NCBI GenBank assembly: GCA_024402405.1
Contig: JAKSTW010000007.1
Coordinates: 1 to 59,221, forward strand
Direction of reading: 5' to 3'
DNA from: Spirochaetia bacterium
Lineage (GTDB): Bacteria > Spirochaetota > Spirochaetia > CADAEX01
DNA length: 59,221 nucleotides
Shown: piece after piece, positions 3,136 through 59,056 of the stretch
Numbering within the stretch: the first letter of the stretch is position 1
How the letters are laid out: every line of letters starts with the position of its first letter
Notes under the pieces: model-generated
The model's input: only the letters and a program-made list of their open reading frames with translations
The model's database searches: none
Told to the model about the DNA's origin: nothing
Translations under genes and position numbers: made by a program

Positions 3136-4965
3136 TTAAAGTGCTTTCAGATTCTTTTCAAGAATATCCAGCTGCTCTGAAAGTTCTTTCGGAAGATGCT
3201 TCCCGAACTTAGGATAATGATTTTCTCTGATATCCTTGATCTCCTTCAGCCATCCTTCTTTGTCTACAGAAGTGATCGCAGGAACATTTGCCTTCTCCTC
3301 CTCTGTAAGTCCGTCGGTGTTCAGTGCACCTGCCTTAGGCATATATCCTATGGCTGTATCCACTGCATTGTCTTTTCCGTTGCAGCGGTCGAATATCCAT
3401 GCCAGAACTCTGGAGTTGTCGCCGTAACCAGGCCACATGAAGTTGCCGTCAGCATCCTTGCGGAACCAGTTGACATAGAAGATCTTAGGCAGTTTGTCCT
3501 CTGTTGATTTCTTTCCGATATTGATCCAGTGCTGGAAATAATCTCCCATATTGTATCCGCAGAACGGAAGCATTGCGAATGGGTCTCTTCTGACCTGTCC
3601 GACCTGATCTGAGATCACAGCCGCTGTGACTTCTGAACCTACTATAGAACCCAGGAATACGCCATGGTTCCATGTCCTTGCCTGATGTACCAGTGGAATT
3701 GTTGAAGGTCTTCTTCCTCCGAAAAGGAATGCTGAGATAGGAACTCCCTTTGGATCTTCCCATTCCGGTGCAATGCATGGGCACTGTCTTGCAGGTGCTG
3801 TGAAGCGTGCGTTAGGATGTGCGAACTCCTCTCCCTTAGGTGATTTGTCCTTTGCCAGTGCATCCCTTGTCTGTCCTTTCCAGTCCACCAGCTTGCCTTT
3901 TGCAGGATAGCCGATTCCTTCCCACCAGATATCTCCGTCCTCTGTGAGGGCACAGTTGGTGAATATTGTGTTGGAGCTGGCTGCTGCCAGTGCGTTCTTG
4001 TTTGATTTCTCTGATGTTCCAGGTGCCACACCGAAGAAACCTGCCTCCGGGTTGATGGCATAAAGTCTGCCGTCTTCACCGAATTTCATCCATGCGATAT
4101 CGTCTCCGATAGTCTCAACTTTCCAGCCAGGAATCTTTGGAATAAGCATTGCCAGGTTGGTCTTTCCGCAGGCAGAAGGGAATGCACCTGTCACATATTT
4201 CACTTCGCCTTCAGGATTTGTAAGTTTCAGGATAAGCATATGCTCTGCCAGCCAGCCTTCATCTCTTGCCAGTACGGTGGCAATTCTGAGCGCAAAGCAT
4301 TTCTTGCCCAGCAGTGCGTTTCCGCCATAACCTGAACCGTAGGACCAGATCGTTCTTTCCTCCGGGAACTGGCTGATATATTTGTTATCCATATCTGCAC
4401 ATGGCCAGATTCCGTTGTCAGACTCACCCTCAGCCAGTGGTTTTCCGACTGAATGGAGACATGGAACGAACTCACCGTCTGTACCGATGGCTTCCAGAAC
4501 CTTGTTTCCCACTCTGGTCATTATTATCATATTGCAGACTACATACTCAGAATCTGTGATCTCAATACCATTCTTTGAGATAGGGGAGCCTACAGGTCCC
4601 ATGCTGAAAGGGATCACATACATTGTCCTGCCTTTCATACATCCGCTATAGAGCCCTTTCATGGTCTTTTTCAGCTCCACCGGATCGATCCAGTGGTTTG
4701 TAGGACCTGCATCCTCTTCTTTTACAGAAGAAATGAAAGTGCGGGCCTCGACTCTGGCAACATCAGAAGGAAGTGAGCGGAACAGAAAGCTGTTCTGTTT
4801 TTTCTTCAGCGGAATAGCCAGACCGGAATCCACCATTTTCTGCATGAGTGTGTCATATTCTTCTTTTGTACCGTCACAGACGTGAACTGCATCCGGTGTA
4901 CACATTTTCTGGACTTCTTCGATCCATGCTTTTATCTTGGCATGTTTGATATCATTGACTGTCAT
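3136..4965 (-). CDS. pckG: phosphoenolpyruvate carboxykinase (GTP)
   Basis: The enzyme interconverts oxaloacetate plus GTP with phosphoenolpyruvate plus CO2 and GDP in the cytoplasm. The 609-residue chain is full length for the GTP-dependent family. Visible motifs are the P-loop FPSACGKTN with the family's reactive cysteine (near residue 266), the metal-binding [10 protein letters not shown], the guanine-site region around [14 protein letters not shown], and [11 protein letters not shown] strong Shine-Dalgarno sequence (AAGGAG) precedes the ATG by about 7 nt. The gene is transcribed alone, with its own promoter and terminator. In fermenting anaerobes this enzyme often runs in the carboxylating direction, making ATP or GTP equivalents on the way to succinate or aspartate; the direction here is inference. 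Confidence 0.98.
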
Positions 4966-46839: not shown

Positions 46840-47919
46840 ATGACACCTAAAGTAGGAGTAATAAATGCTGGTGCCTGGGGAACAGCAGTAGCCAAGCAGA
46901 TAGCACAGAAAGGTATAGAAGTTCAGATGTGGGATTTTATGGAATCCGTTGTGGAGGACATAAATATCAATCATGCAAACACTAAATATCTGCCGGGAGT
47001 CAAACTTCCTCCGACACTTACAGCATCTACAGATATAGTGGAAGTGGGTGAGGGGAAGGATTTCATCATTATAGCCACTCCATCACTCTATCTGGTGAAT
47101 ACAGTCAAGAAGCTTCTGGATGTGGATGGCATCCGTGAGGGCAAGACTCTTGTTGGAGTTATTTCAAAGGGATTCATTCCTACAGCCTCAGGCCCGAAAC
47201 TGATTCTCAATGTCCTGGAAGATTATTTCCCTGGATTCTACCGTGATAATATCGTATATATCGCAGGTCCTAGCCATGCCGAGGAGGTTGCCCGGAACAA
47301 ATTCACCGGACTCATCAGCTCATGCAAGAATGGCAAGAACTCGATCAAATTCAGGGAGCTTCTCAACAGCAAGTCCCTTATCGTGTTCTCTTCCTTCGAT
47401 GTTGTGGGTGTGCAGACATGTGCCGCAGTGAAAAATATAATAGCCATTGCATTCGGTATTCTGGATGCTTTCAAGGAACAGTCACCTCTTTTCGGAGACA
47501 ATACAGAATCTCTCCTTCTGGCTGCCGGTCTCAATGAGATCCAGACTCTGGGTCAGGCTCTGGGTGCCACACATCCTGAGACCTTCACCTCCATTTCAGG
47601 CGTCGGAGACCTGGATGTTACCTGCCGCAGTATTCACGGAAGAAACAGACGTTTCGGACAGGATATCATAAATAAGAATATTCTGGAGAATTTCACAGAT
47701 ATTGATGACCTGATAAAGAACATCAGCAAGATCGGATATCTGGCTGAAGGTGCTGTAGCTGCCAAATATGTCAAGCAGATCATTGATGACCACAAGCTCA
47801 AACTGCCTATCTCATCAATGGTTTACAGCATAATAAATAAGGAGATCTCTCCTGAAAATGCGATATGTGCTCTTGTGGGTAATTCCATGGAGCTTATGGG
47901 TACAGGGGATAAGGATTAA
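46840..47919 (+). CDS. gpsA: glycerol-3-phosphate dehydrogenase (NAD(P)+)
   Basis: The enzyme reduces dihydroxyacetone phosphate to sn-glycerol 3-phosphate for phospholipids. The 359-residue chain has the dinucleotide-binding INAGAWGTAVAKQIA, the substrate-binding GPSHAEEVARN, the catalytic lysine in TCAAVKNIIAIAFGI and the family block GVGDLDVTC with GRNRRFGQ. The Rossmann motif reads NAGAWG instead of GAGSWG, a small deviation. AAGGAG is 7 nt before the ATG at 46840. Its stop shares the palindrome TTAA with the convergent DHH gene. Confidence 0.95.
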   Translation: MTPKVGVINAGAWGTAVAKQIAQKGIEVQMWDFMESVVEDININHANTKYLPGVKLPPTLTASTDIVEVGEGKDFIIIATPSLYLVNTVKKLLDVDGIREGKTLVGVISKGFIPTASGPKLILNVLEDYFPGFYRDNIVYIAGPSHAEEVARNKFTGLISSCKNGKNSIKFRELLNSKSLIVFSSFDVVGVQTCAAVKNIIAIAFGILDAFKEQSPLFGDNTESLLLAAGLNEIQTLGQALGATHPETFTSISGVGDLDVTCRSIHGRNRRFGQDIINKNILENFTDIDDLIKNISKIGYLAEGAVAAKYVKQIIDDHKLKLPISSMVYSIINKEISPENAICALVGNSMELMGTGDKD

Positions 47920-48914
47920 TTCACTGTACTGAAAAATTCTGCCACCAGGGGAAGGATCTGTTTCCTTGAGGGAACCACATTTCCCTGGCGGTAGATTTCC
48001 ATTCCCTTTATCCTGCCTTTTGCAGACATATCAAGACTGTGACAGTTCAGAAAGCTGATTATTTTTACAGCCGTTTCAGAGACTGGCAGAATGGCCAGCT
48101 CTTTCTGGAATGTGCCATGATTGAAGAATGTCATTATCAGCAGATATGCCAGTTTTTTATCTGCCATGAAGGTTGCGGCTTCCTCTGAGAAATCAGGATG
48201 AGTCTCTGCTGTTTTTTCCAGGCTTTCGTATATGGCACTGAATCCGATTTTCCCGGCAGATGTGCTTATCTCCTTGTAATCTTTCTGAAGCAGTTCTCCT
48301 GTGGTATATCCTTTCAGATCTGTCCTGGCAGACAGTATCTTCCTGTAAAGTTCCTCAGCCTGAGCAAGATCCATATCCAGTATCTTCAGACAGTGTGCAA
48401 GGATGATTCTGTCCTTTTCCTTTGCCAGTCCTGCCTCCGGAGACATACAGGCTGTGTCTGTGAGTATGGCACTGGCTGCCAGATATGCCCAGGTTCTGTC
48501 CAGCTCCATTCCGGATTCCAGTATATGGCTGACCACCACAGTGGCGCAGGAACCCACCGCCTCAATATGCTTTTCTGCGGCATTGGTTCCATCATCCCTG
48601 TGGTGGTCAAGTATCAGAGTGACTGCATCTGACAGGTGACACTGGCTGTCCGACAGATGGTTGTGATCCACCAGGACTAGCTCCAGAGAGCCATCCCGGT
48701 GCATCTGTTCCAGTGGTATCTCATCAACGAAGTGGAGACAGTCTGCGGATATGCCTGCCTGGTTCAGCACGAAAGATACTTCTTTACGCAGTCTGAGCTC
48801 ATTCCTTGGGATATTTATTACAGGTATGGCATTGAAAGCCTGTGCATACAGGATGGTGCATACTGTGGAATCCAGATCAGCCGCCTGGTTGCACAGCACT
48901 GCTTTATTTTTCAT
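47916..48914 (-). CDS. DHH/DHHA2 phosphoesterase, exopolyphosphatase or pyrophosphatase-like
   Basis: The 332-residue protein has the DHH metal-binding motifs (NQAADLDSTVCTILYA, LVDHNHLS, LILDHHRDD) and a C-terminal DHHA2 domain ending with the substrate-binding VPSRKQILP. This combination occurs in manganese-dependent inorganic pyrophosphatases and in PPX1/Prune exopolyphosphatases; the AADLDST form is closer to the latter. The ATG at 48914 fits the domain start and overlaps the CpXC gene by 11 bp; longer forms from 48974 or 49004 would overlap by 71 or 101 bp. Only a weak ribosome site is visible. It is the last gene of the rpsB operon. Confidence 0.85.
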   Translation of the reverse strand: MKNKAVLCNQAADLDSTVCTILYAQAFNAIPVINIPRNELRLRKEVSFVLNQAGISADCLHFVDEIPLEQMHRDGSLELVLVDHNHLSDSQCHLSDAVTLILDHHRDDGTNAAEKHIEAVGSCATVVVSHILESGMELDRTWAYLAASAILTDTACMSPEAGLAKEKDRIILAHCLKILDMDLAQAEELYRKILSARTDLKGYTTGELLQKDYKEISTSAGKIGFSAIYESLEKTAETHPDFSEEAATFMADKKLAYLLIMTFFNHGTFQKELAILPVSETAVKIISFLNCHSLDMSAKGRIKGMEIYRQGNVVPSRKQILPLVAEFFSTVN

Positions 48915-49590
48915 CTGTACTGTCGGCTGGTTTATCTGCCTGCCCGTCAGTTCCTTCTTCCTGGATGTCCTCATATACTCTGGAAATCCTGAGAACTGAC
49001 ACATAAGGAGGTGTCAGAAAAAGGGAGAATGGCTCCATGCGCTTGTATGCCAGCATTTTGACTCTGGCCACATCATAGAAGCTCTTGGGTATTGCCAGAA
49101 AACCAACCTCATCCTGTTTCAGTCCATGAATCTGGAAAATAAGGTTGCTTTTCTCATCCAGATGGTCAAAATAACATCTGACCTCATTCTCCGGCTTGTT
49201 GTCTGCCTCGATTTTGGACAGCATATAATATTTGACTGTCTCCACCACCAGGTCATCCAGCCCCTCATTTACGATTTTCAGTTTCTCCTGAAGCTCCGGG
49301 AATCCTATGACGATCCGGCTGACTTTCTTGAACTGATATCTGGATTTGCCACGGAGATAATCATCTCTTTCTCTTTCAGGCACAAAAAGGATATCTATTT
49401 TTTTATCTTCATGCTTTATGGTGAAGTTGAATTCAGGATGCAGCTCCTTTCCGCATTTAGGGCATTTGACTGACATGAAGGTTCCCTCAAAAATCCGGTT
49501 GGCCACCTCAGGTGTCTTTTTTAGATCTATCTCTTCATCGTATTCAAAAGGTACAGGTGCAAAACAGGAACATGGAACTAATTTTTTCAT
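48904..49590 (-). CDS. CpXC-domain protein
   Basis: The 228-residue protein carries two cysteine pairs, PCSCF (Cys7, Cys9) and VKCPKCGKEL (about 43-46), the pattern of the CpXC domain (probably a zinc-binding knuckle). The remainder is a mixed alpha/beta region with EKLKIVNEGLDDLVVETVKYYML, ending in an acidic tail. The function of the family is unknown; it is common in spirochetes and Firmicutes. AAGGAG is 7 nt before the ATG. Its place between rseP and the DHH gene gives no clear role. Confidence 0.85.
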   Translation of the reverse strand: MKKLVPCSCFAPVPFEYDEEIDLKKTPEVANRIFEGTFMSVKCPKCGKELHPEFNFTIKHEDKKIDILFVPERERDDYLRGKSRYQFKKVSRIVIGFPELQEKLKIVNEGLDDLVVETVKYYMLSKIEADNKPENEVRCYFDHLDEKSNLIFQIHGLKQDEVGFLAIPKSFYDVARVKMLAYKRMEPFSLFLTPPYVSVLRISRVYEDIQEEGTDGQADKPADSTDEK

Positions 49591-49602
49591 AAATATCTCC
49601 TT

Positions 49603-50961
49603 TTATTTTCGTAATAAGAAGATCACATCGTTAAAGACTGTGAAGATCATCAATGTGATAAGCAGTGCAAATCCTATCATCTGATATCTGAATGCCGCTT
49701 TTGGCGGGATTTTCTTTCTTGTGACAAGCTCAATGAGGCACAGCAGTATTCCACCGCCGTCCAGTGCCGGTATCGGAAGCAGATTCATGAAGAAGAGCGC
49801 TATGTTTATCAGGGAAAGGAACTGGAAAAATGAGATGAGTCCTTCGCTGATGCTGACGCCGAAACCCTGGGATGTGATTTCTCCCATCATGTATGTTATT
49901 CTGATAGGACCTGATACAGCCTGGCTCAGATCGACACCGCCGAACAGCAGTTTCAGGCTTTTCACGGAGATGGCAAGTGTCTTGAATGACTCTGTGGTTC
50001 CTTTTCTCAATGCCTGGAAAATATTCATGTCCGGTGAGTCATAGGACTGCACCTGGAATGAGAATCCGGGATCTGCCACTCCCTGATCATTGTAGTTCAG
50101 TATAAGCTCAGTCTCCATTTTCTGTCCGTCCCTGAGATATGTCAGGTGTACTTTGGATGGTTTTTCCCACAGCACGGACACTATATCCATATAATTTCTG
50201 ACTTCCTGATCCTCTGCCATGACAATTATATCACCATGCTGCAGCCCGGCGATGTATGCTGATGAGTTCTGTGTCACCTGGTCTATGACAGGATCTATCC
50301 ACGGATATACACCTATGGTTCCGGCTCCTGTGGATTTGTTCAGCTCAGGTACGATGGACACATGCAGTTCCTGACCGTCCCGGAGGATCGTCATTTCCAG
50401 AGTGTCCTTGGCTTTCACAGCTATGGCTTCTCTCATGTCCTGAAAGTTTGTTATTTCCCTGCCGTTTACTGCTGTGACATAATCTCCGGTTTTCAGCCCT
50501 GCACGGTCTGCCGCAAACTCCTGTTCCCCCGGATGGTATTCTGATGCCAGTATGATCCTGTTCTCCGGACTCATTACTGAGAATCCTGACATCCAGATGA
50601 CAGAAAGGGCGATTATTGAGAATATCAGGTTCATGAAAGGACCTGCAAAATATATTATGGCTTTTTTCAGCGGATGGGCAGCATTGAGAGACCCCTCTGT
50701 GTCCTGCGGCACTTCCTGGGTATCATTCTCCGGGCTGTCATGGAATTCCTCACCCTTCATCTTGCAGTATCCGCCCATAGGCAGCAGTGACAGTCTGTAT
50801 TCTGTTTCACCTTTGGTGAATGATAATATTTTTGGACCCCAGCCTATGGAAAATGCCTCAACTTTTACGCCGCACAGTTTTGCCGCAATGAAATGTCCTG
50901 CCTCATGGAAGCAGACTACCATGCCGAGTCCGATCAAACCTATAATTATGTTAAGAATCAT
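49603..50961 (-). CDS. rseP: site-2 intramembrane metalloprotease RseP
   Basis: RseP-type proteases cut membrane-embedded anti-sigma factors and remnant signal peptides. The 452-residue protein has the zinc-binding HEAGH in the first helix (His19-His23), two PDZ domains (around residues 125-210 and 220-300; AGLKTGDYVTAVNGREI and AGLQHGDIIVMAEDQEV), and the second active-site motif NLLPIPALDGG in a later helix. It follows cdsA after 4 bp with no clear ribosome site, so it is probably coupled. In the Treponema order I remember, dxr lies between the two; it is missing here. Confidence 0.96.
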   Translation of the reverse strand: MILNIIIGLIGLGMVVCFHEAGHFIAAKLCGVKVEAFSIGWGPKILSFTKGETEYRLSLLPMGGYCKMKGEEFHDSPENDTQEVPQDTEGSLNAAHPLKKAIIYFAGPFMNLIFSIIALSVIWMSGFSVMSPENRIILASEYHPGEQEFAADRAGLKTGDYVTAVNGREITNFQDMREAIAVKAKDTLEMTILRDGQELHVSIVPELNKSTGAGTIGVYPWIDPVIDQVTQNSSAYIAGLQHGDIIVMAEDQEVRNYMDIVSVLWEKPSKVHLTYLRDGQKMETELILNYNDQGVADPGFSFQVQSYDSPDMNIFQALRKGTTESFKTLAISVKSLKLLFGGVDLSQAVSGPIRITYMMGEITSQGFGVSISEGLISFFQFLSLINIALFFMNLLPIPALDGGGILLCLIELVTRKKIPPKAAFRYQMIGFALLITLMIFTVFNDVIFLLRK

Positions 50962-50965
50962 TATT

Positions 50966-51820
50966 TCAACCGATTAAAGATGCAATATATTTTATAATAT
51001 AATAATAAACTGGGGCTGTGAAAACTATTGAATCAACATTATCCATGACACCGCCGCGTCCAGGGATGTAATTGCCTGAGTCTTTCACTCCGGCAGAACG
51101 TTTCATGGCTGATTCTATCAGGTCTCCCACTGGAGCCAGCACACCTATGATGGCTCCTGTTGATACGGCATTCATGATATTTGTGCCGAACATCGGCGCT
51201 CCCATGAAATATACTATCATCGCTCCGGCGATAGATGCGAAGAAGCCTCCGATGAAACCGGCCAGGCTTTTCTTCGGGCTGATAGGGAATATGTTGCGGT
51301 TGCTCTTTCCCCAGATCATTCCGAATATGTATGCGAAGATATCATTCATGAACACCAGCACCAGGAAACCGACCATAGTCCATGACGGATGGGGAAGTGT
51401 GGTAAGCTTCACCGGATAGGTAAGGAATATTCCAGGATAGAAGACCAGTACAAGCAGTGATGTGATATGACTGTTGATGTCTCTGAATCTGTTCTCATCT
51501 CTGAGGAATATCTGGTAGGAAAATATGATAAAAATCAGGATTCCTGCTGTTGCCAGAAGGGCTCCTGCCGGAAGGATCTCAGCACATTCAAGATAGTTGA
51601 CTGCCGATATGACCAGTCCTATGAGTGCTGCCGGAAGCAAGCTCTTTTTATCAGATTTGCCTGTCAGAATTCGCAGTATCTCGACTGAACCTGCTGTAAG
51701 AAACAGTGTTGATACTATATGTATGCAGATATGATGCCAGAAAGGAAGAAGGAAGATGGTGGCGAAGAGTGTTGGTATTACGGTAAAGATCAGCAGTAAT
51801 CTAAGTTTAAAATTTGACAT
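50966..51820 (-). CDS. cdsA: phosphatidate cytidylyltransferase
   Basis: CdsA makes CDP-diacylglycerol for all phospholipids. The 284-residue membrane protein has about seven or eight helices and the family signature near the C-terminus: GDLIESAMKRSAGVKDSG followed by IPGRGGVMDNVDSI. CGGAG lies 9 nt before the ATG. It follows uppS after 3 bp within the rpsB operon. Confidence 0.96.
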   Translation of the reverse strand: MSNFKLRLLLIFTVIPTLFATIFLLPFWHHICIHIVSTLFLTAGSVEILRILTGKSDKKSLLPAALIGLVISAVNYLECAEILPAGALLATAGILIFIIFSYQIFLRDENRFRDINSHITSLLVLVFYPGIFLTYPVKLTTLPHPSWTMVGFLVLVFMNDIFAYIFGMIWGKSNRNIFPISPKKSLAGFIGGFFASIAGAMIVYFMGAPMFGTNIMNAVSTGAIIGVLAPVGDLIESAMKRSAGVKDSGNYIPGRGGVMDNVDSIVFTAPVYYYIIKYIASLIG

Positions 51821-51823
51821 ATA

Positions 51824-52519
51824 TCACTCCGTTATTGCCCCGTATTTCCGCGTTCTGCCCTGGTAGCTCTCTATAGCTGCCACCAGATCATCTTTGTCCC
51901 ATTCCGGCCAGTATTTGCTGCTGAAGTAGAATTCGCTGTACGCACTTTCCCACAGCAGAAAATTGCTGAGTCTCATCTCTCCCGCGGTTCTTATGATAAG
52001 ATCAGGGTCAGGTATCTCAGGATGATCCATGTTGGCTGAAAGCAGCTCTTCTGTGATCTCTCCCGGTCCCGACCCCCGGATCTTTCTGATTGCCCTGATT
52101 ATCTCGTCCCTGCCGCCATAATTTATGGCCAGATTGACTGTCAGACCTGTGAAACCTGCTGTTATAGCCTGCACGTCTGTCAGCTCTTTCTGGACTGCGG
52201 AAGGAAGCTGCTGGAGGCTGCCTGAGTGGACTACTCTGATACCGTTCTCCTGATAGAATCTGTATTCATTCCGGAGATGGTATTTCAGCAGTCCCATAAG
52301 GAAAGTGACTTCAGTCTCGGACCTTTTCCAGTTTTCAGTGGAGAAGGTGTACAGTGACAGGTATTTTACTCCCATATCACTGGCTGCCTTTGCTATGCGC
52401 TTGGCAGCCTCAAGACCTGCCGTGTGGCCGAAAGTCCTGGGTTTCCCCTGGTTCTGCGCCCAACGGCCGTTACCGTCCATTATGATTCCTATGTGCTCAG
52501 GTACCTTCAGTGTGATCAT
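51824..52519 (-). CDS. uppS: undecaprenyl pyrophosphate synthase
   Basis: The cis-prenyltransferase builds the C55 lipid carrier for peptidoglycan. The 231-residue chain has IIMDGNGRWA (catalytic Asp), GHTAGLEA, SLYTFSTENWKR and the C-terminal DLIIRTAGEMRLSNFLLWESAYSE region, where the usual RTSGE reads RTAGE. The ATG overlaps the frr stop as ATGA. Confidence 0.96.
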   Translation of the reverse strand: MITLKVPEHIGIIMDGNGRWAQNQGKPRTFGHTAGLEAAKRIAKAASDMGVKYLSLYTFSTENWKRSETEVTFLMGLLKYHLRNEYRFYQENGIRVVHSGSLQQLPSAVQKELTDVQAITAGFTGLTVNLAINYGGRDEIIRAIRKIRGSGPGEITEELLSANMDHPEIPDPDLIIRTAGEMRLSNFLLWESAYSEFYFSSKYWPEWDKDDLVAAIESYQGRTRKYGAITE

Positions 52520-53070
52520 ATTTCCATGATTTCTTTTTCTTTTGCCTCGGCAATCTTTGCGATTTCTGCAATATACTTGTCAGTCATCTTCTGGATCGCA
52601 TCTGCGCCTGTCTTTTCCTGATCCTCAGTGATCTCGCTGGCTTTCTGCTTTTTCTTAAGCTCGTCATTGGCCTCTCTGCGGATATTTCTGATGGCAACCT
52701 TACGGTTTTCTGCCATTCCCTTGGCCTGTTTTGCCAGTTCCTTTCTTCTCTGTTCTGTCAGAGGAGGAATGTTGAGTCTGATGACTTTGCCATCATTGTT
52801 AGGGTTCAGGGAAAGATCTGACTGAAGAATGGCCTTCTCGATGTCCTTGATGATGCTCTTGTCCCATGGCTGGATAGTCACGAGTCTTGCCTCAGGAATG
52901 GAGATAGTAGCCACCTGGTTCAGTGGGGTAGGCTTGCCGAAGTACATGACACTCACTCTGTCAAAAAGTGCTGCGGAAGCTCTTCCTGTTCTGATGGTTC
53001 CAAGCTCTTCGATGAAGGAAGCCACGCTTTTCTTCATCTTATCTTCTGTTTTAGCTTTTACTGTTTCCAT
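52516..53070 (-). CDS. frr: ribosome recycling factor
   Basis: The factor splits post-termination ribosomes with EF-G. The 184-residue chain matches the normal 185. Its three-helix bundle shows EELGTIRTGRASAALFD near the N-terminus and LTEQRRKELAKQAKG with VAIRNIRREAND toward the C-terminus. The start is 12 bp after tsf with only a weak ribosome site. The pyrH gene that often sits between tsf and frr is absent, as I recall for spirochetes. Confidence 0.97.
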   Translation of the reverse strand: METVKAKTEDKMKKSVASFIEELGTIRTGRASAALFDRVSVMYFGKPTPLNQVATISIPEARLVTIQPWDKSIIKDIEKAILQSDLSLNPNNDGKVIRLNIPPLTEQRRKELAKQAKGMAENRKVAIRNIRREANDELKKKQKASEITEDQEKTGADAIQKMTDKYIAEIAKIAEAKEKEIMEI

Positions 53071-53082
53071 AGTATTCTTTGG

Positions 53083-53925
53083 TCAGGCATTGTCGCCAAG
53101 TCTGTAATATACGTAATCCACAACTTCAAGCTTTCCGCCGGCAGCCTTTGCTGTCTCAGCCAGAACCTGTGATACTTTCTTCTTGTCATCCTTTACGAAT
53201 GGCTGGTCAAGGAAGCAGATTTCTGCCAGGTGCTTGTTGAGCTTGCCCTTGATGATTCCTGCAAGAACTTTCTCCGGTTTGTCCAGTCCCTCAACCTGCT
53301 TTGCGAAGATCTCCTCCTGCTCTTTGATGTAAGCTGGATCGATCTTTGCTGCACAGAGAGCTGCCGGGTTGAATGCTGCGATATGGAGAGCACAGTCGAA
53401 TGCGAATGTCTTTACAGCCTCATTGCTGAAAAGTGCGGCATTGTCTGCCTTGAATTTGATCAGAACACCGATGTTGCCCACGCCGTGAACGTACTGAACT
53501 GCATATTCATTTTCAGCGAGATCAAGAACTCTGAATCTGGCAAGTGTCATGTTCTCTTTGATAGTTGCGATAGCTTCCTTTACCATGAGTGTGAGCTTTT
53601 CTGTAGGCTCCTTGGCACCGGATGCGATGATCTCTGCTGCAAGAGCCTGTCCAAGAGCATTGAACTGGTCTGTCTTTGCAACGAAGTCTGTCTCGCAGGA
53701 GAGTTCAAGGATAACAGCCTTATTGTCCTTGATAGCTGTGAAGATCTTTCCTTCCTTTGTCTCTCTTGCACTTCTCTTTGCTGCAGCTGCAAGTCCTTTT
53801 TCCTTAAGGATCTTCACTGCTTTTTCAATATTTCCCTCAGCCTCGATGAGAGCCTTCTTGCAGTCGCCCATTCCGGCGCCAGTCTGGTCTCTGAGTGCTT
53901 TTACGTCAATTGGTTTGATATCCAT
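53083..53925 (-). CDS. tsf: elongation factor Ts
   Basis: EF-Ts exchanges GDP on EF-Tu. The 280-residue chain has the N-terminal UBA-like domain with LRDQTGAGMGDCKKAL and the core contact motif LSCETDFVAKT. Two later dimerisation subdomains are present. AGGAG is 8 nt before the ATG. It lies 14 bp after rpsB. Confidence 0.97.
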   Translation of the reverse strand: MDIKPIDVKALRDQTGAGMGDCKKALIEAEGNIEKAVKILKEKGLAAAAKRSARETKEGKIFTAIKDNKAVILELSCETDFVAKTDQFNALGQALAAEIIASGAKEPTEKLTLMVKEAIATIKENMTLARFRVLDLAENEYAVQYVHGVGNIGVLIKFKADNAALFSNEAVKTFAFDCALHIAAFNPAALCAAKIDPAYIKEQEEIFAKQVEGLDKPEKVLAGIIKGKLNKHLAEICFLDQPFVKDDKKKVSQVLAETAKAAGGKLEVVDYVYYRLGDNA

Positions 53926-53939
53926 AAAAATTCTCCTGA

Positions 53940-54854
53940 TTATTTGTCCTCGTAAAATTTGTCTGTGTCGATTCCGTCATCTTCCTCGATCTCAGGCTCT
54001 TTCTCTGCATTCTCTTCAGGCATATAGTTTGAATAGTCCTCAGCTGTGAACTTCCCGCCCTTTACCTCTCCAAGAGCCTCTGCCATTGTTGGCTCTGCCT
54101 CGTCCTTGTCTGGCTCGCCCTCGTCAATGGTTGTCTCGTCTTCCTGGATGTTCTCGATCACCTGGAGTCCGATCTCATTGTCAGCCTCGATTACAGCGTT
54201 GGCGATGATCTGTGTGAAAAGTGTGATGGCTCTGATAGCGTCATCATTGCCCGGAATAGGGAAGTTGATGCCTTCTGGGTTGCAGTTTGTATCCACGATG
54301 GCAACGATAGGAATGTGGCATTTGATAGCTTCTGCTACTGCGATAGCCTCTTTCTTTGTGTCGATGATGAAGATAACGCCAGGAAGCTCCTTCATGTCCT
54401 TGATACCCTCAAGGTTCTTCACCAGTTTTGCCTTCTCTTTCATAAGAAGAGCAACTTCTTTCTTTGTAAGGCTTTCGAATGTGCCGTCAATTTCCATTTT
54501 CTCAATTTTCTTGAGGCGCATGATCGATTTCTTGATGGTTGCGAAGTTTGTGAGCATACCGCCGAGCCATCTGTTATTTACATAATACTGGCCACATTTC
54601 TCAGCAGCTTCTTTCACTGCCATCTGTGCCTGTTTCTTGGTTCCTATGAAAAGTACGGACTTGCCGTCTTTTACTGTTGTTCTGATAAACTCATAAGCAT
54701 CTTTGATTGCTGTTATGGTCTTCTGAAGATCGATGATATGAATGCCGTTGCGCTCTGCAAAGATGAACTTTTTCATCCTTGGATCCCAACGTTTTGTCTG
54801 GTGTCCGAAATGAACACCTGATTCCACCAGCTTTTTCCTTGTTACTACTGCCAT
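53940..54854 (-). CDS. rpsB: 30S ribosomal protein S2
   Basis: S2 binds late to the 30S head. The 304-residue chain starts with [20 protein letters not shown] and has [11 protein letters not shown] and [10 protein letters not shown], both diagnostic. After about residue 230 it has an acidic tail of about 70 residues (rich in Glu and Asp, ending YEDK), longer than the E. coli protein; Treponema S2 is also long, from memory. A perfect AGGAGG lies 8 nt before the ATG. It is led by a predicted 95-nt structured leader. Confidence 0.97.
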
Positions 54855-54950
54855 TTTTTTTCCTCCTGATATACGGTTTTATAAACCGCTCCGTCTCTTT
54901 TTCTCGAATCCCTGAAAGGATCGGAATATTATTTTGCAGGATAACCTGCT
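54855..54950 (-). promoter_or_regulatory. predicted structured leader of the rpsB operon
   Basis: From the predicted start near 54950 to the ATG the leader is about 95 nt, far longer than others in this window. It opens with a hairpin (GCAGG, 4-nt loop, CCTGC; 54936-54949) and ends with a perfect hairpin (CGGTTT, 3-nt loop, AAACCG; 54874-54888) just ahead of AGGAGG. This layout would suit S2 autoregulation, known in E. coli, but no sequence homology was established. Confidence 0.45.
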
Positions 54951-55510
54951 TTCTTCATTATATAGAAAAGTTTTCTTATTGGCAACCCTATAACGTTGCT
55001 GAATGAGCCATTTATTTTTTCAACCAGCGCGGCACCGCGGTGCTGGATCCTGTATGCCCCTGCGGCTCCCTGCCATTCACCTGTGGAGAGATACCATTCT
55101 ATCTCTGCCTCTGTGAGCTGTCCCATGGTGACTGTTGTTATGTCGGAGGTGCTGAATATTGCTCCTGTGGTGCGGTCCATGAATGCCAGTCCTGTTATTA
55201 CCTGATGTTCCTGTCCCGAAAGTGAAGTGAGAAACTGCCGTGCCTGCTCCGGACTGGCTGGTTTGCCCATGGGATATCCCTGGAAAATTACAAGTGTGTC
55301 TGCCGCTGCGATCCATTTTTCAGGTCTTTCTTTGTTCTGCAGATGTGCCGCCTGAGCTTTCCTGACGGCCAGTTCTGTTATTTCCTCTCTGGGGGATGCC
55401 CATGGAATTGTCTCGTCTATGTCTGCCGGAATGCTGATGTATGGAAGTTCCAGTGACTCGAATATTTCTCTGCGTCCTTTTGATGCAGAGGCCAGTATGA
55501 TAGTGTCCAT
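54929..55510 (-). CDS. maf: Maf-family nucleotide pyrophosphatase
   Basis: Maf proteins hydrolyse dTTP, UTP or modified nucleotides and influence septation. The 193-residue chain has ILASASKGRREIFESL, PREEITELAVRKA, the catalytic AADTLVIFQG and the GAAGAYRIQHRGAAL block. The AADTLV form with the residues around it resembles the dTTP/UTP pyrophosphatase group. It starts 6 nt below a -10 box with no ribosome site and ends 74 bp before rpsB. Confidence 0.93.
   Translation of the reverse strand: MDTIILASASKGRREIFESLELPYISIPADIDETIPWASPREEITELAVRKAQAAHLQNKERPEKWIAAADTLVIFQGYPMGKPASPEQARQFLTSLSGQEHQVITGLAFMDRTTGAIFSTSDITTVTMGQLTEAEIEWYLSTGEWQGAAGAYRIQHRGAALVEKINGSFSNVIGLPIRKLFYIMKKAGYPAK
54957..54985 (-). 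promoter_or_regulatory. rpsB operon promoter inside maf
   Basis: TTGCCA (54980-54985) and TATAAT (54957-54962) are 17 bp apart on the minus strand and lie inside the last codons of maf. The ribosomal operon can therefore be transcribed independently of maf. Confidence 0.7.
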
Positions 55511-55831: not shown

Positions 55832-56644
55832 ATGCTTGAAAACAAAGACTGTATGACTTTTGACGAGAGGTGGAGAGCCCTGACTATAACCAACGACTTC
55901 ATCTTCGGCTGGGTGTTCTCAGACAAGGAAAGGTGCAGAAAGCTCATAGAGCTCCTTCTTGGGATCAAAGTAAAAAATCTGGAGGTGCCGCAGACGCAGA
56001 AGAGCATCAAGACCTCGCTCATCTCCCGGGGTGTTAGGTTCGATGTGTACGCCGAGGATAATGACAGGGCATTTGACATAGAGATACAGACGGTGAACCA
56101 GAGGAACTGGGAACTGCGGACGAGGTACTACCAGAGCAGGATGGACGGCAGCCTGATAAACCAGGGACAGGACTACAGGGATCTGAAGGAGACCTATGTG
56201 ATATTTCTGTGCTGCTTCGATCCGGTGGGATTGAAAGAGTGCAAGTATGAGACAGTGCATGTGCTGAAGGAGCACAGGGAATACATAATAGATGACAGAA
56301 GGCACATAGTGCTGTATAATATCCATGAGTACCTGAAGTCGGAGGATGAGGAGCAGAGGGCATTCTTTGAGTACATGGCCACGGGGAATGCTGGGTCAGC
56401 ATTCTCAAAAGAAGTGCAGGACAACGTAGACAGGGCCAAGACAGATGACGATCTGAGGAGTGGAGTTATGACGCTGGAGATGGAGATCAACATGATGAAG
56501 AAAGATGCAAAGAAGGAAGGTATACAGGAAGGCATTGAGAAAACTCGGCTGGAGAATGCCAGAAATTTCAAATCCCTAGGTGTTGACATTGAAACAATTG
56601 CTAAGGCTACGGGGTTTACTCTGGAACAGGTGCAGGCGCTTTAA
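55832..56644 (+). CDS. Rpn-family PD-(D/E)XK nuclease / putative transposase
   Basis: Rpn proteins are endonucleases that raise RecA-independent recombination; many are annotated as PD-(D/E)XK transposases. The 270-residue chain has the N-terminal ITNDFIFGWVFSD, the nuclease core with VRFDVYAEDN (Asp) and AFDIEIQTVNQ (E-x-Q), and the typical RTRYYQSRMDGSLINQGQDY. The C-terminal KEGIQEGIEKTRLENARNF and GVDIETIAKATGFTLEQV form the usual helical tail. All catalytic positions seem intact. AGGAGG is 6 nt before the ATG. Arginine is coded by AGG far more often than in neighbouring core genes, suggesting transfer. Confidence 0.92.
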   Translation: MLENKDCMTFDERWRALTITNDFIFGWVFSDKERCRKLIELLLGIKVKNLEVPQTQKSIKTSLISRGVRFDVYAEDNDRAFDIEIQTVNQRNWELRTRYYQSRMDGSLINQGQDYRDLKETYVIFLCCFDPVGLKECKYETVHVLKEHREYIIDDRRHIVLYNIHEYLKSEDEEQRAFFEYMATGNAGSAFSKEVQDNVDRAKTDDDLRSGVMTLEMEINMMKKDAKKEGIQEGIEKTRLENARNFKSLGVDIETIAKATGFTLEQVQAL

Positions 56645-56951: not shown

Positions 56952-58091
56952 ATGAAAAGAATTTTATACCTTCTTCTGGCACTGAGCCTGGTGCTTTTCA
57001 GCGGGATGATGCTCTCCTGCTCATCGGGCGGTGGCGGCGGTGGCGACGATGAGCAGCCAAACTATCTGTGCTTCACGAACAATACTTCAATGAGTACAAT
57101 AACGACTACGATTTCGGCTAAGATGATTGGAGCCTTAGATACCACTCCTAGACTGGAATATTCCACAGATGGTGAGAACTGGAACGAGTTTATCCTGTCT
57201 ACTGACACTACTGACGGTACTGTAGTAACTCTTCTAGATAACGGTGGCAAGGTATATCTGAGGGCAAAGGACAAGAATAATACATTTTCAACGGATATGT
57301 ATAATTATATATATTTCATAATGACAGGAAGCACATCAGGAGACATAGCAGCCAGCGGCAGCATAATGAGTCTGCTGGACAAAAGCTGCCAGTCCAAGGT
57401 CATACCATGTGATGCCTGCTTTTTGGGCTTGTTCTCTGGCTGCAGCAATCTGACCAGTGCACCTGAACTGCCTGCAACAACATTGACTAATGAGTGCTAT
57501 GCTTTTATGTTCTTTGGCTGCAGCAGTCTGACCAGTGCACCTGAACTGCCGGCAAAAACACTGGCTGAATATTGCTATGGCAGTATGTTCTCTGGCTGCA
57601 GCAGTCTGACCAGCGCACCTGAACTTCCAGCAACGACACTGGCTGAAGATTGCTATTATTGTATGTTCAAAAACTGCAGTAAACTGACCAGTACACCTGA
57701 ACTTCCGGTAACAACACTGGCTGAAGAGTGCTATTATTCTATGTTCTCTGGCTGCAGCGGCCTGACCAGTGCACCTGCATTGCCTGCAACAACACTGGCT
57801 AGAAGTTGCTATTATGAGATGTTCAAAAACTGCAGTAAACTGACCAGTGCACCTGTATTGCCGGCAACAACAGTGATTGAAAGCTGTTATGCTGGGATGT
57901 TCTCTGGCTGCAGCAGTCTGAACCGTGTAGAGGTTAAGTTCACTAGCTGGACTGATGGTGTATATATATATCCAGTCACTACTGATTGGCTTGAGGGTGT
58001 GCCTTCCGAAGGTACATTCATCTGTCCGGGCGGGCTCTCCAAACTATATGATGACTCACATATTCCATCTGACTGGACTGTGAATCCCTGA
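56952..58091 (+). CDS. repeat-bearing surface lipoprotein, TpLRR/BspA-like, long paralogue
   Basis: The 379-residue lipoprotein has a signal ending MLSC (Cys23), followed by Ser-Ser and six glycines as a flexible tether. Residues about 35-150 form a beta-rich domain (LEYSTDGENW, KVYLRAKD). Six tandem 26-residue repeats follow (residues 164-319), with consensus CSSLTSAPELPATTLAE-CYYSMF-G, then a truncated seventh and a C-terminal domain ending HIPSDWTV. The repeats match the cysteine-containing Treponema/BspA-like LRR class, often surface-exposed adhesins. GGAG precedes the ATG by 8 nt, and a (CAAA)8 tract lies upstream. Expression may be phase variable. A paralogue with three repeats follows. 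Confidence 0.88.
   Translation: MKRILYLLLALSLVLFSGMMLSCSSGGGGGGDDEQPNYLCFTNNTSMSTITTTISAKMIGALDTTPRLEYSTDGENWNEFILSTDTTDGTVVTLLDNGGKVYLRAKDKNNTFSTDMYNYIYFIMTGSTSGDIAASGSIMSLLDKSCQSKVIPCDACFLGLFSGCSNLTSAPELPATTLTNECYAFMFFGCSSLTSAPELPAKTLAEYCYGSMFSGCSSLTSAPELPATTLAEDCYYCMFKNCSKLTSTPELPVTTLAEECYYSMFSGCSGLTSAPALPATTLARSCYYEMFKNCSKLTSAPVLPATTVIESCYAGMFSGCSSLNRVEVKFTSWTDGVYIYPVTTDWLEGVPSEGTFICPGGLSKLYDDSHIPSDWTVNP
57441..57908 (+). repeat. six tandem 78-bp coding repeats
   Basis: Each unit codes for 26 residues and begins at the TGC codon of CSxLTSxP. Unit sequences differ mainly at the CYxxMF positions. The same unit occurs three times in the downstream paralogue, so unequal recombination or gene conversion could move units. 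Confidence 0.92.
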
Positions 58092-58186: not shown

Positions 58187-59056
58187 ATGAAAAGAATTTT
58201 ATATCTTCTGCTGGCACTGAGTCTGGTGCTGTTCTGCGGTATGATGCTCTCCTGCTCATCGGGCGGTGGCGGCGGAGACGATGATGACGAAGGCAGCCAG
58301 CTTTCGTATCTGTGCTTCACAGCCAATGCTGACAGCAGTTCGATCACAACCAAGGTTGAGGGAGCGGTAGAGCCTCTTCCAGCGCTGGAGTATTCCACAG
58401 ATGGTGAGAACTGGGCAGATTTTGTCGTTGGGGATACGAAAGTATCACTGAACAAAGATGAGAAGGTGTATCTGAGGGCAAAGGGCACGAATGATACATT
58501 CTCAAAGAATGTTTTAAATTTTATATACTTTGCCATGGAAGGAAGCATAGCAGCCAGCGGCAGCATAATGAGCCTGCTGGACAGCACTTGCCAGTCAAAG
58601 GAAATACCATGTGATTGCTGCTTTGTTTGTTTGTTCGGAAACTGCAGCAGTCTGACCAGTGCACCTGTACTGCCTGCAACGACACTGGCTGATGGCTGCT
58701 ATATGTATATGTTCGAAGACTGCAGCAGTCTGACCAGTGCACCTGCACTGCCGGCAATGACACTGGCTGATTATTGCTATGAAAGTATGTTCGCAGGCTG
58801 CAGCAGTCTGACCAGTGCACCTGTACTGCCTGCAACGACACTGGCTGATGACTGCTATATATATATGTTCGAAGACTGCAGCAGTCTGACCAGTGTAGAA
58901 GTTGCATTCACTTACTGGAACGTAAGTGGCAATTCAACATTTTGTTGGCTTGCTGGTGTGAGCTCCACAGGCACATTCACATGTCCGAGCGGGTTTGATA
59001 CCAGCACAAGAGATGTACATCATATTCCGTCTGACTGGACTGTAGTGACAAAATAA
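58187..59056 (+). CDS. repeat-bearing surface lipoprotein, short paralogue
   Basis: The 289-residue lipoprotein is a close paralogue of the preceding gene: the first 30 codons are nearly the same, including MLSC (Cys23) and a glycine tether, followed by the same beta-rich domain. It has three complete 26-residue repeats (residues 153-230) and a truncated fourth, and ends in the same HIPSDWTV domain. Aspartates replace several tether and repeat positions (LADDCY, MFEDCSS). GAGGGAAG precedes the ATG. A short TTTGTTTGTTTG run lies in its coding sequence just before the repeats. Probable surface protein. Confidence 0.87.
   Translation: MKRILYLLLALSLVLFCGMMLSCSSGGGGGDDDDEGSQLSYLCFTANADSSSITTKVEGAVEPLPALEYSTDGENWADFVVGDTKVSLNKDEKVYLRAKGTNDTFSKNVLNFIYFAMEGSIAASGSIMSLLDSTCQSKEIPCDCCFVCLFGNCSSLTSAPVLPATTLADGCYMYMFEDCSSLTSAPALPAMTLADYCYESMFAGCSSLTSAPVLPATTLADDCYIYMFEDCSSLTSVEVAFTYWNVSGNSTFCWLAGVSSTGTFTCPSGFDTSTRDVHHIPSDWTVVTK
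58643..58876 (+). repeat. three tandem 78-bp coding repeats
   Basis: Three units homologous to those at 57441-57908. Units one and three are nearly identical, differing mostly at LADGCYMY versus LADDCYIY, suggesting recent duplication. Confidence 0.9.

Follow-up and report, generated by a model that had tools for sequence, protein, structure and literature searches.

A conserved structured RNA leader before rpsB in the class Spirochaetia, with a proposed role in S2 autoregulation

In Escherichia coli, autogenous repression of rpsB-tsf by ribosomal protein S2 is proven (PMC10931766), and the t44/rpsB motif, an RNA located before rpsB, mediates it (Rfam RF00127; Meyer 2009, PMC2704228). Other leaders restricted to the 5' untranslated regions (UTRs) of ribosomal protein (r-protein) genes and supported by covariation were described by Eckert and Weinberg 2020 (PMC7247131); none of these 20 is listed for spirochaetes or with S2 as its ligand, and neither "spirochaet*" nor "Treponema" occurs in the main text of that paper. 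Here we analyze the rpsB leader in a 59,221-nucleotide stretch of DNA from a Spirochaetia bacterium (contig JAKSTW010000007.1; hereafter the window, meaning the whole stretch). Comparison of sequences indicates that the core of this leader is a conserved folded RNA element across the class; the element itself, its base pairing as judged by covariation, and its restriction to rpsB are what we regard as established. We further consider it fairly probable that rpsB messenger RNA starts at a promoter within maf, carries this conserved structured leader of about 95 nt, and is part of an operon that excess free S2 represses. The parts of the leader are as follows.

54862..54929, minus strand: whole conserved leader element, AUAUUCC ... 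AGGAGG (covariance model score 56.6 bits, E 1.5e-9 for the genome).
54901..54926, minus strand: P1 stem-loop, from the fold and covariation.
54904, minus strand: invariant bulged A in G-A-GA (84/84 leaders of the model-fitted alignment).
54891..54900, minus strand: purine-rich junction strand AAAGAGACGG (consensus NNAGAGaaGG), conserved in relatives.
54873..54889, minus strand: P2 hairpin GCGGUUU AUA AAACCGU, with covarying pairs.
54862..54867, minus strand: Shine-Dalgarno (SD) sequence AGGAGG, separated from the ATG by seven A; its GGAG is invariant in 84 leaders.

The 99-nt leader has a predicted folding energy of -22.8 kcal/mol, compared to -15.3 for shuffled sequences (sd 2.75, z=-2.73). 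P1 is formed by UUC (54926-54924) with GAA (54903-54901), CG (54923-54922) with CG (54906-54905), and AUCC (54921-54918) with GGAU (54911-54908). P2 ends 5 nt upstream of AGGAGG, which is mostly unpaired in the predicted fold.

Relatives provide the strongest evidence for this structure. We identified rpsB in all 60 relatives searched, including six congeners and four members of a sister genus; the nearest ones with names are gut metagenome-assembled genomes (MAGs), and the comparison places this genome in a distinct family of Spirochaetia MAGs from the gut rather than in Treponema, which the original prediction had named for related genomes. The regions upstream of rpsB share the consensus AUCUUCC-[helix]-G-A-GAA-NNAGAGaaGG-[helix]-SD, in which both helices vary in sequence, and in most Treponema the junction strand is GAGUUUGG. 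In a MAFFT alignment of 27 leaders made from sequence only, 77.7% of cells at the proposed pairs can pair (62.2% when shuffled) and the covariation score is 0.323 (0.118 when shuffled), a signal that collapses when the partners are slid. The 84 model-matched leaders score 0.458 vs. 0.126, and stem pairs rank top in an unsupervised pair scan of 32 non-redundant leaders. Because the 84-leader alignment was fitted to the covariance model, the MAFFT result and the 32-leader scan are the safer evidence, bearing in mind that the scan uses the same fitted alignment. A pattern test found the bulged-A stem and junction in 109 of 120 distinct rpsB leaders, compared to 6.9 in mononucleotide shuffles; bulge bases other than A gave counts near the shuffled background. 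We found no further helix or pseudoknot, as neither the 84 nor the 32 leaders contain a pairable covarying pair outside P1 and P2 other than register slips at the base of P1.

The original prediction had proposed two perfect hairpins and asked for their conservation and covariation among relatives. The leader shows conservation and covariation alike, with the strongest signal in P1, the most conserved hairpin (54926-54901), which lies between those two and had been overlooked. Of the hairpins listed, the second is P2 and covaries, but the first is coding sequence and probably lies outside the conserved element:

54936..54949, minus strand: hairpin 1, GCAGG UUAU CCUGC, in maf codons Ala-Gly-Tyr-Pro-Ala.

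Of synonymous recodings, 18% fold as well as hairpin 1 does. It is retained within the genus, where we looked for compensatory changes and found none.

The element is also highly specific in its location. Among 93 sources (686 kb) the covariance model has 84 matches, every one directly before rpsB and none elsewhere, and the only good match in the genome under study is the rpsB leader. Scanning the phylum with strict filters gave model matches at E<=0.01 in 87 of 393 genomes, adjoining rpsB in all 12 for which the position of rpsB is known. The sole match outside the class (genome G156) is inside a coding frame and was rejected as a false positive. The element also occurs in further families of the class, in some of them in forms too divergent for the model; small-genome relatives resembling Borrelia have UUUC-CACUA..UAGUG-A-GUA-AAAGCGAGGG, recognised by eye only. 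Other classes of the phylum are mostly without it, and one genome of family 37 has AUCUUCCGGCUAAGCCGAGAAAUAUGG.

Several variants were seen along the way. In genome G017 (L145:1004-1759 and 3710-4601), local duplication of maf, the leader, and the start of rpsB has produced a second copy of the element, the upstream copy being followed by a short rpsB fragment only. Large P2 insertions extend the leaders of L078, L086, L091, L064, and L067 to as much as ~160 nt, with P1, junction, and SD unchanged. The lineage comprising L044, L049, L108, and L162 has a different rpsB leader, perhaps a replacement, with a plain UUCC..GG stem that has no bulged A and with AAGGAUUCGAAAGAAUUCCU-like hairpins between that stem and the SD. 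In L201 and L206, from other classes of the phylum, a similar UC-stem-G-U-GA with a bulged U instead of A precedes rpsB; these are possibly distant forms of the element.

Transcription of the element together with rpsB is predicted from a strong, conserved promoter within the upstream gene.

54957..54985, minus strand: predicted promoter, -35 TTGCCA (54985-54980), 17 bp, -10 TATAAT (54962-54957).
54929..55510, minus strand: maf coding sequence, which contains the promoter (Pfam PF02545, Maf, E=1e-51).
53940..54854, minus strand: rpsB, ribosomal protein S2 (Pfam PF00318, Ribosomal_S2, E=2.5e-97).

This site is of sigma-70 type, is joint best among nine promoter-like sites in 3.5 kb (4.6 expected), and has a predicted start ~7 nt past the -10 hexamer, which gives the rpsB leader its length of ~95 nt. 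The -35 hexamer overlaps the Gly-Leu-Pro motif of Maf, for which 112 loci with maf upstream could be compared: the Leu codon is TTG in 107 and the Pro codon is CCA or CCT in 104, while Leu codons nearby in the same maf genes are TTG in only 22 of 240 cases (9%). A NATNNT-type hexamer follows at a spacing of exactly 17 bp in 111 of the 112; since the A and the last T of this hexamer mostly follow from the Ile/Met and Leu codons there, it is the synonymous choice of TTG that counts as real evidence for a promoter. Two genomes of other classes with a maf frame before rpsB (L182, L187) have TTA at that Leu codon. The promoter originally proposed in the 3' end of maf is borne out as a prediction, both by its 11 of 12 consensus matches and by the class-wide -35 codon bias, and on these sequences an embedded predicted promoter upstream of the element is common to the class Spirochaetia. 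It makes a clear example of promoter function constraining synonymous positions of a coding sequence throughout a whole class of bacteria.

As to what the leader does, regulation by S2 seems to us the best reading, because the element occurs only before rpsB, the sole r-protein gene within a conserved gene order. The genes concerned are:

47916..53925, minus strand: genes co-directional with and 3' of rpsB, namely tsf, frr, uppS, cdsA, and genes for an M50 protease, a CpXC protein, and a DHH/DHHA2 protein (Pfam, open reading frames).

The order rpsB-tsf-frr-uppS is constant in all 62 loci long enough to show it; this constancy, with S2 as the only r-protein and the repression of rpsB-tsf by S2 in E. 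coli, makes an S2 leader most likely. Free S2, when in excess over 16S rRNA, would bind the bulged-A stem and the purine strand, and bound S2 would block ribosome loading at the SD just 3' of them. Through the shared mRNA, repression would extend from rpsB to tsf, frr, uppS, and cdsA. Autoregulation by S2 had been suggested originally; the placement of the element supports that suggestion, while S2 binding to the leader and repression are steps that we infer. Several points weigh against it. Eckert and Weinberg regard gene position as a poor guide to the ligand where an operon has several genes (PMC7247131), a caution qualified here by there being only one r-protein gene in the conserved order. 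Model and pattern searches of spirochaete 16S loci gave no convincing likeness to the S2 sites of 16S rRNA; the assembly under study itself contains no 16S gene. Finally, a few Spirochaetia (L044, L049, L108, L150, L159, L162) are without the element or have a different one. One candidate for 16S mimicry, AAUCUUCCG, also occurs ~370 nt into a 16S rRNA of the Treponema family and was taken as chance; this position corresponds to helix 15, where S2 is not known to bind.

An alternative that we regard as possible, if unlikely, is that the leader is a conserved cis-regulator of the rpsB operon but is bound by something other than S2 on its own, whether an S1-S2 complex, EF-Ts, ribosome recycling factor, or another factor. 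Gene position cannot separate these ligands, because tsf and frr share the conserved order, and E. coli S2 requires S1 for good repression (PMC10931766). In every genome, however, the element is found right at the SD of rpsB, and the ligands of known r-leaders are r-proteins encoded by the mRNA that carries the leader (PMC7247131).

If the regulator is S2, a possible device would be for UUCC to leave the P1 stem and pair with the SD. We also considered the stronger proposal of a class-wide bistable S2 leader with no relation to that of proteobacteria, in which UUCC lies either in the stem, leaving the SD free, or on the SD, which is then hidden, with S2 selecting the closed state; on modeling results, this seems doubtful. 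Energy models of 80 leaders give mean probabilities of 0.39 for UUCC with G-A-GAA and 0.36 for UUCC with the SD; the SD-paired form is dominant in congeners and has a probability of only 0.15 in this genome. Chimeras of unrelated leader halves pair with the SD as well as native leaders do (0.38 vs. 0.36), showing no co-adaptation, and there is therefore no sign of selection for this pairing beyond the invariant UUCC and GGAG. Alignment column 3 and the base after GGAG are pairable in 40 of 84 leaders, about as expected from column frequencies.

Rather less likely, in our estimation, is a fixed element for translation or stability without feedback, in which the purine strand would act as a standby site for ribosomes or as a site for S1, and the hairpins would shield the mRNA or hold the SD open. 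AGAGaaGGA is indeed purine-rich and SD-like, and the mostly unpaired SD of this leader's fold fits such a role, but the class-wide invariance of the bulged A and the exact G-A-GA and AGAG resemble a protein recognition site, and the junction of most Treponema is not SD-like. Chance hairpins or maf coding constraint can explain hairpin 1 but are refuted for the core, which lies 3' of the stop codon of maf and shows strong covariation throughout the class, so that comparison with relatives excludes chance as its origin and leaves this explanation next to no probability. Transcription attenuation by early termination in the leader is likewise very improbable: hairpins do precede the operon, but the minus strand has no terminator-like site from promoter to rpsB, and a purine-rich SD rather than a U run follows P2.

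Elsewhere in the window, on the plus strand, two adjoining paralogous lipoprotein-like genes (56952-58091 and 58187-59056) contain repeated CSSLTSAPELPATTLA units, and an open reading frame at 55832-56644 resembles a putative transposase or nuclease of the Rpn family (PD-(D/E)XK).

Among known systems, t44 is the closest, sharing with the spirochaete leader its position before rpsB, support by covariation, and the role that we propose; sequence, topology, and listed taxa all differ. The RF00127 model has no match in the window (E up to 10) or in eight relatives (E up to 1), while the E. coli rpsB leader, as positive control, matches at 83.5 bits; conversely, E. coli rpsB gives no match to the spirochaete model. 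Rfam, searched at both gathering and relaxed thresholds, has no family that matches the leader. The J2-3 pseudoknot of t44 with the 3' extension after P1 has no corresponding signal in spirochaete leaders. Pairing of UUCC with the SD would give, in silico, a topology like the outer P1 of t44 enclosing a three-stem junction, but native leaders form it no better than chimeras. A likeness to UUCCG opposite a bulge in E. coli t44 was taken as coincidence, because the t44 consensus varies at that place. With the ribosomal leaders of Eckert and Weinberg, the element shares a consistent 5' UTR position (84/84 and 12/12) and a covariation-supported structure; likeness to the ligand's rRNA site, which is frequent in such leaders and not required, was not found. 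Our partial coverage of the literature found no published S2 leader or other r-leader in spirochaetes, and this structural class of putatively autoregulatory S2 leader is therefore only provisionally novel. The element can be identified in Treponema and, by visual inspection, in the small-genome family resembling Borrelia. If the S2 reading is true, recognition of RNA by S2, still unclear in E. coli, could be tested on a much smaller RNA (~40–70 nt), and feedback control by S2 would have arisen at least two times, with different RNA structures.
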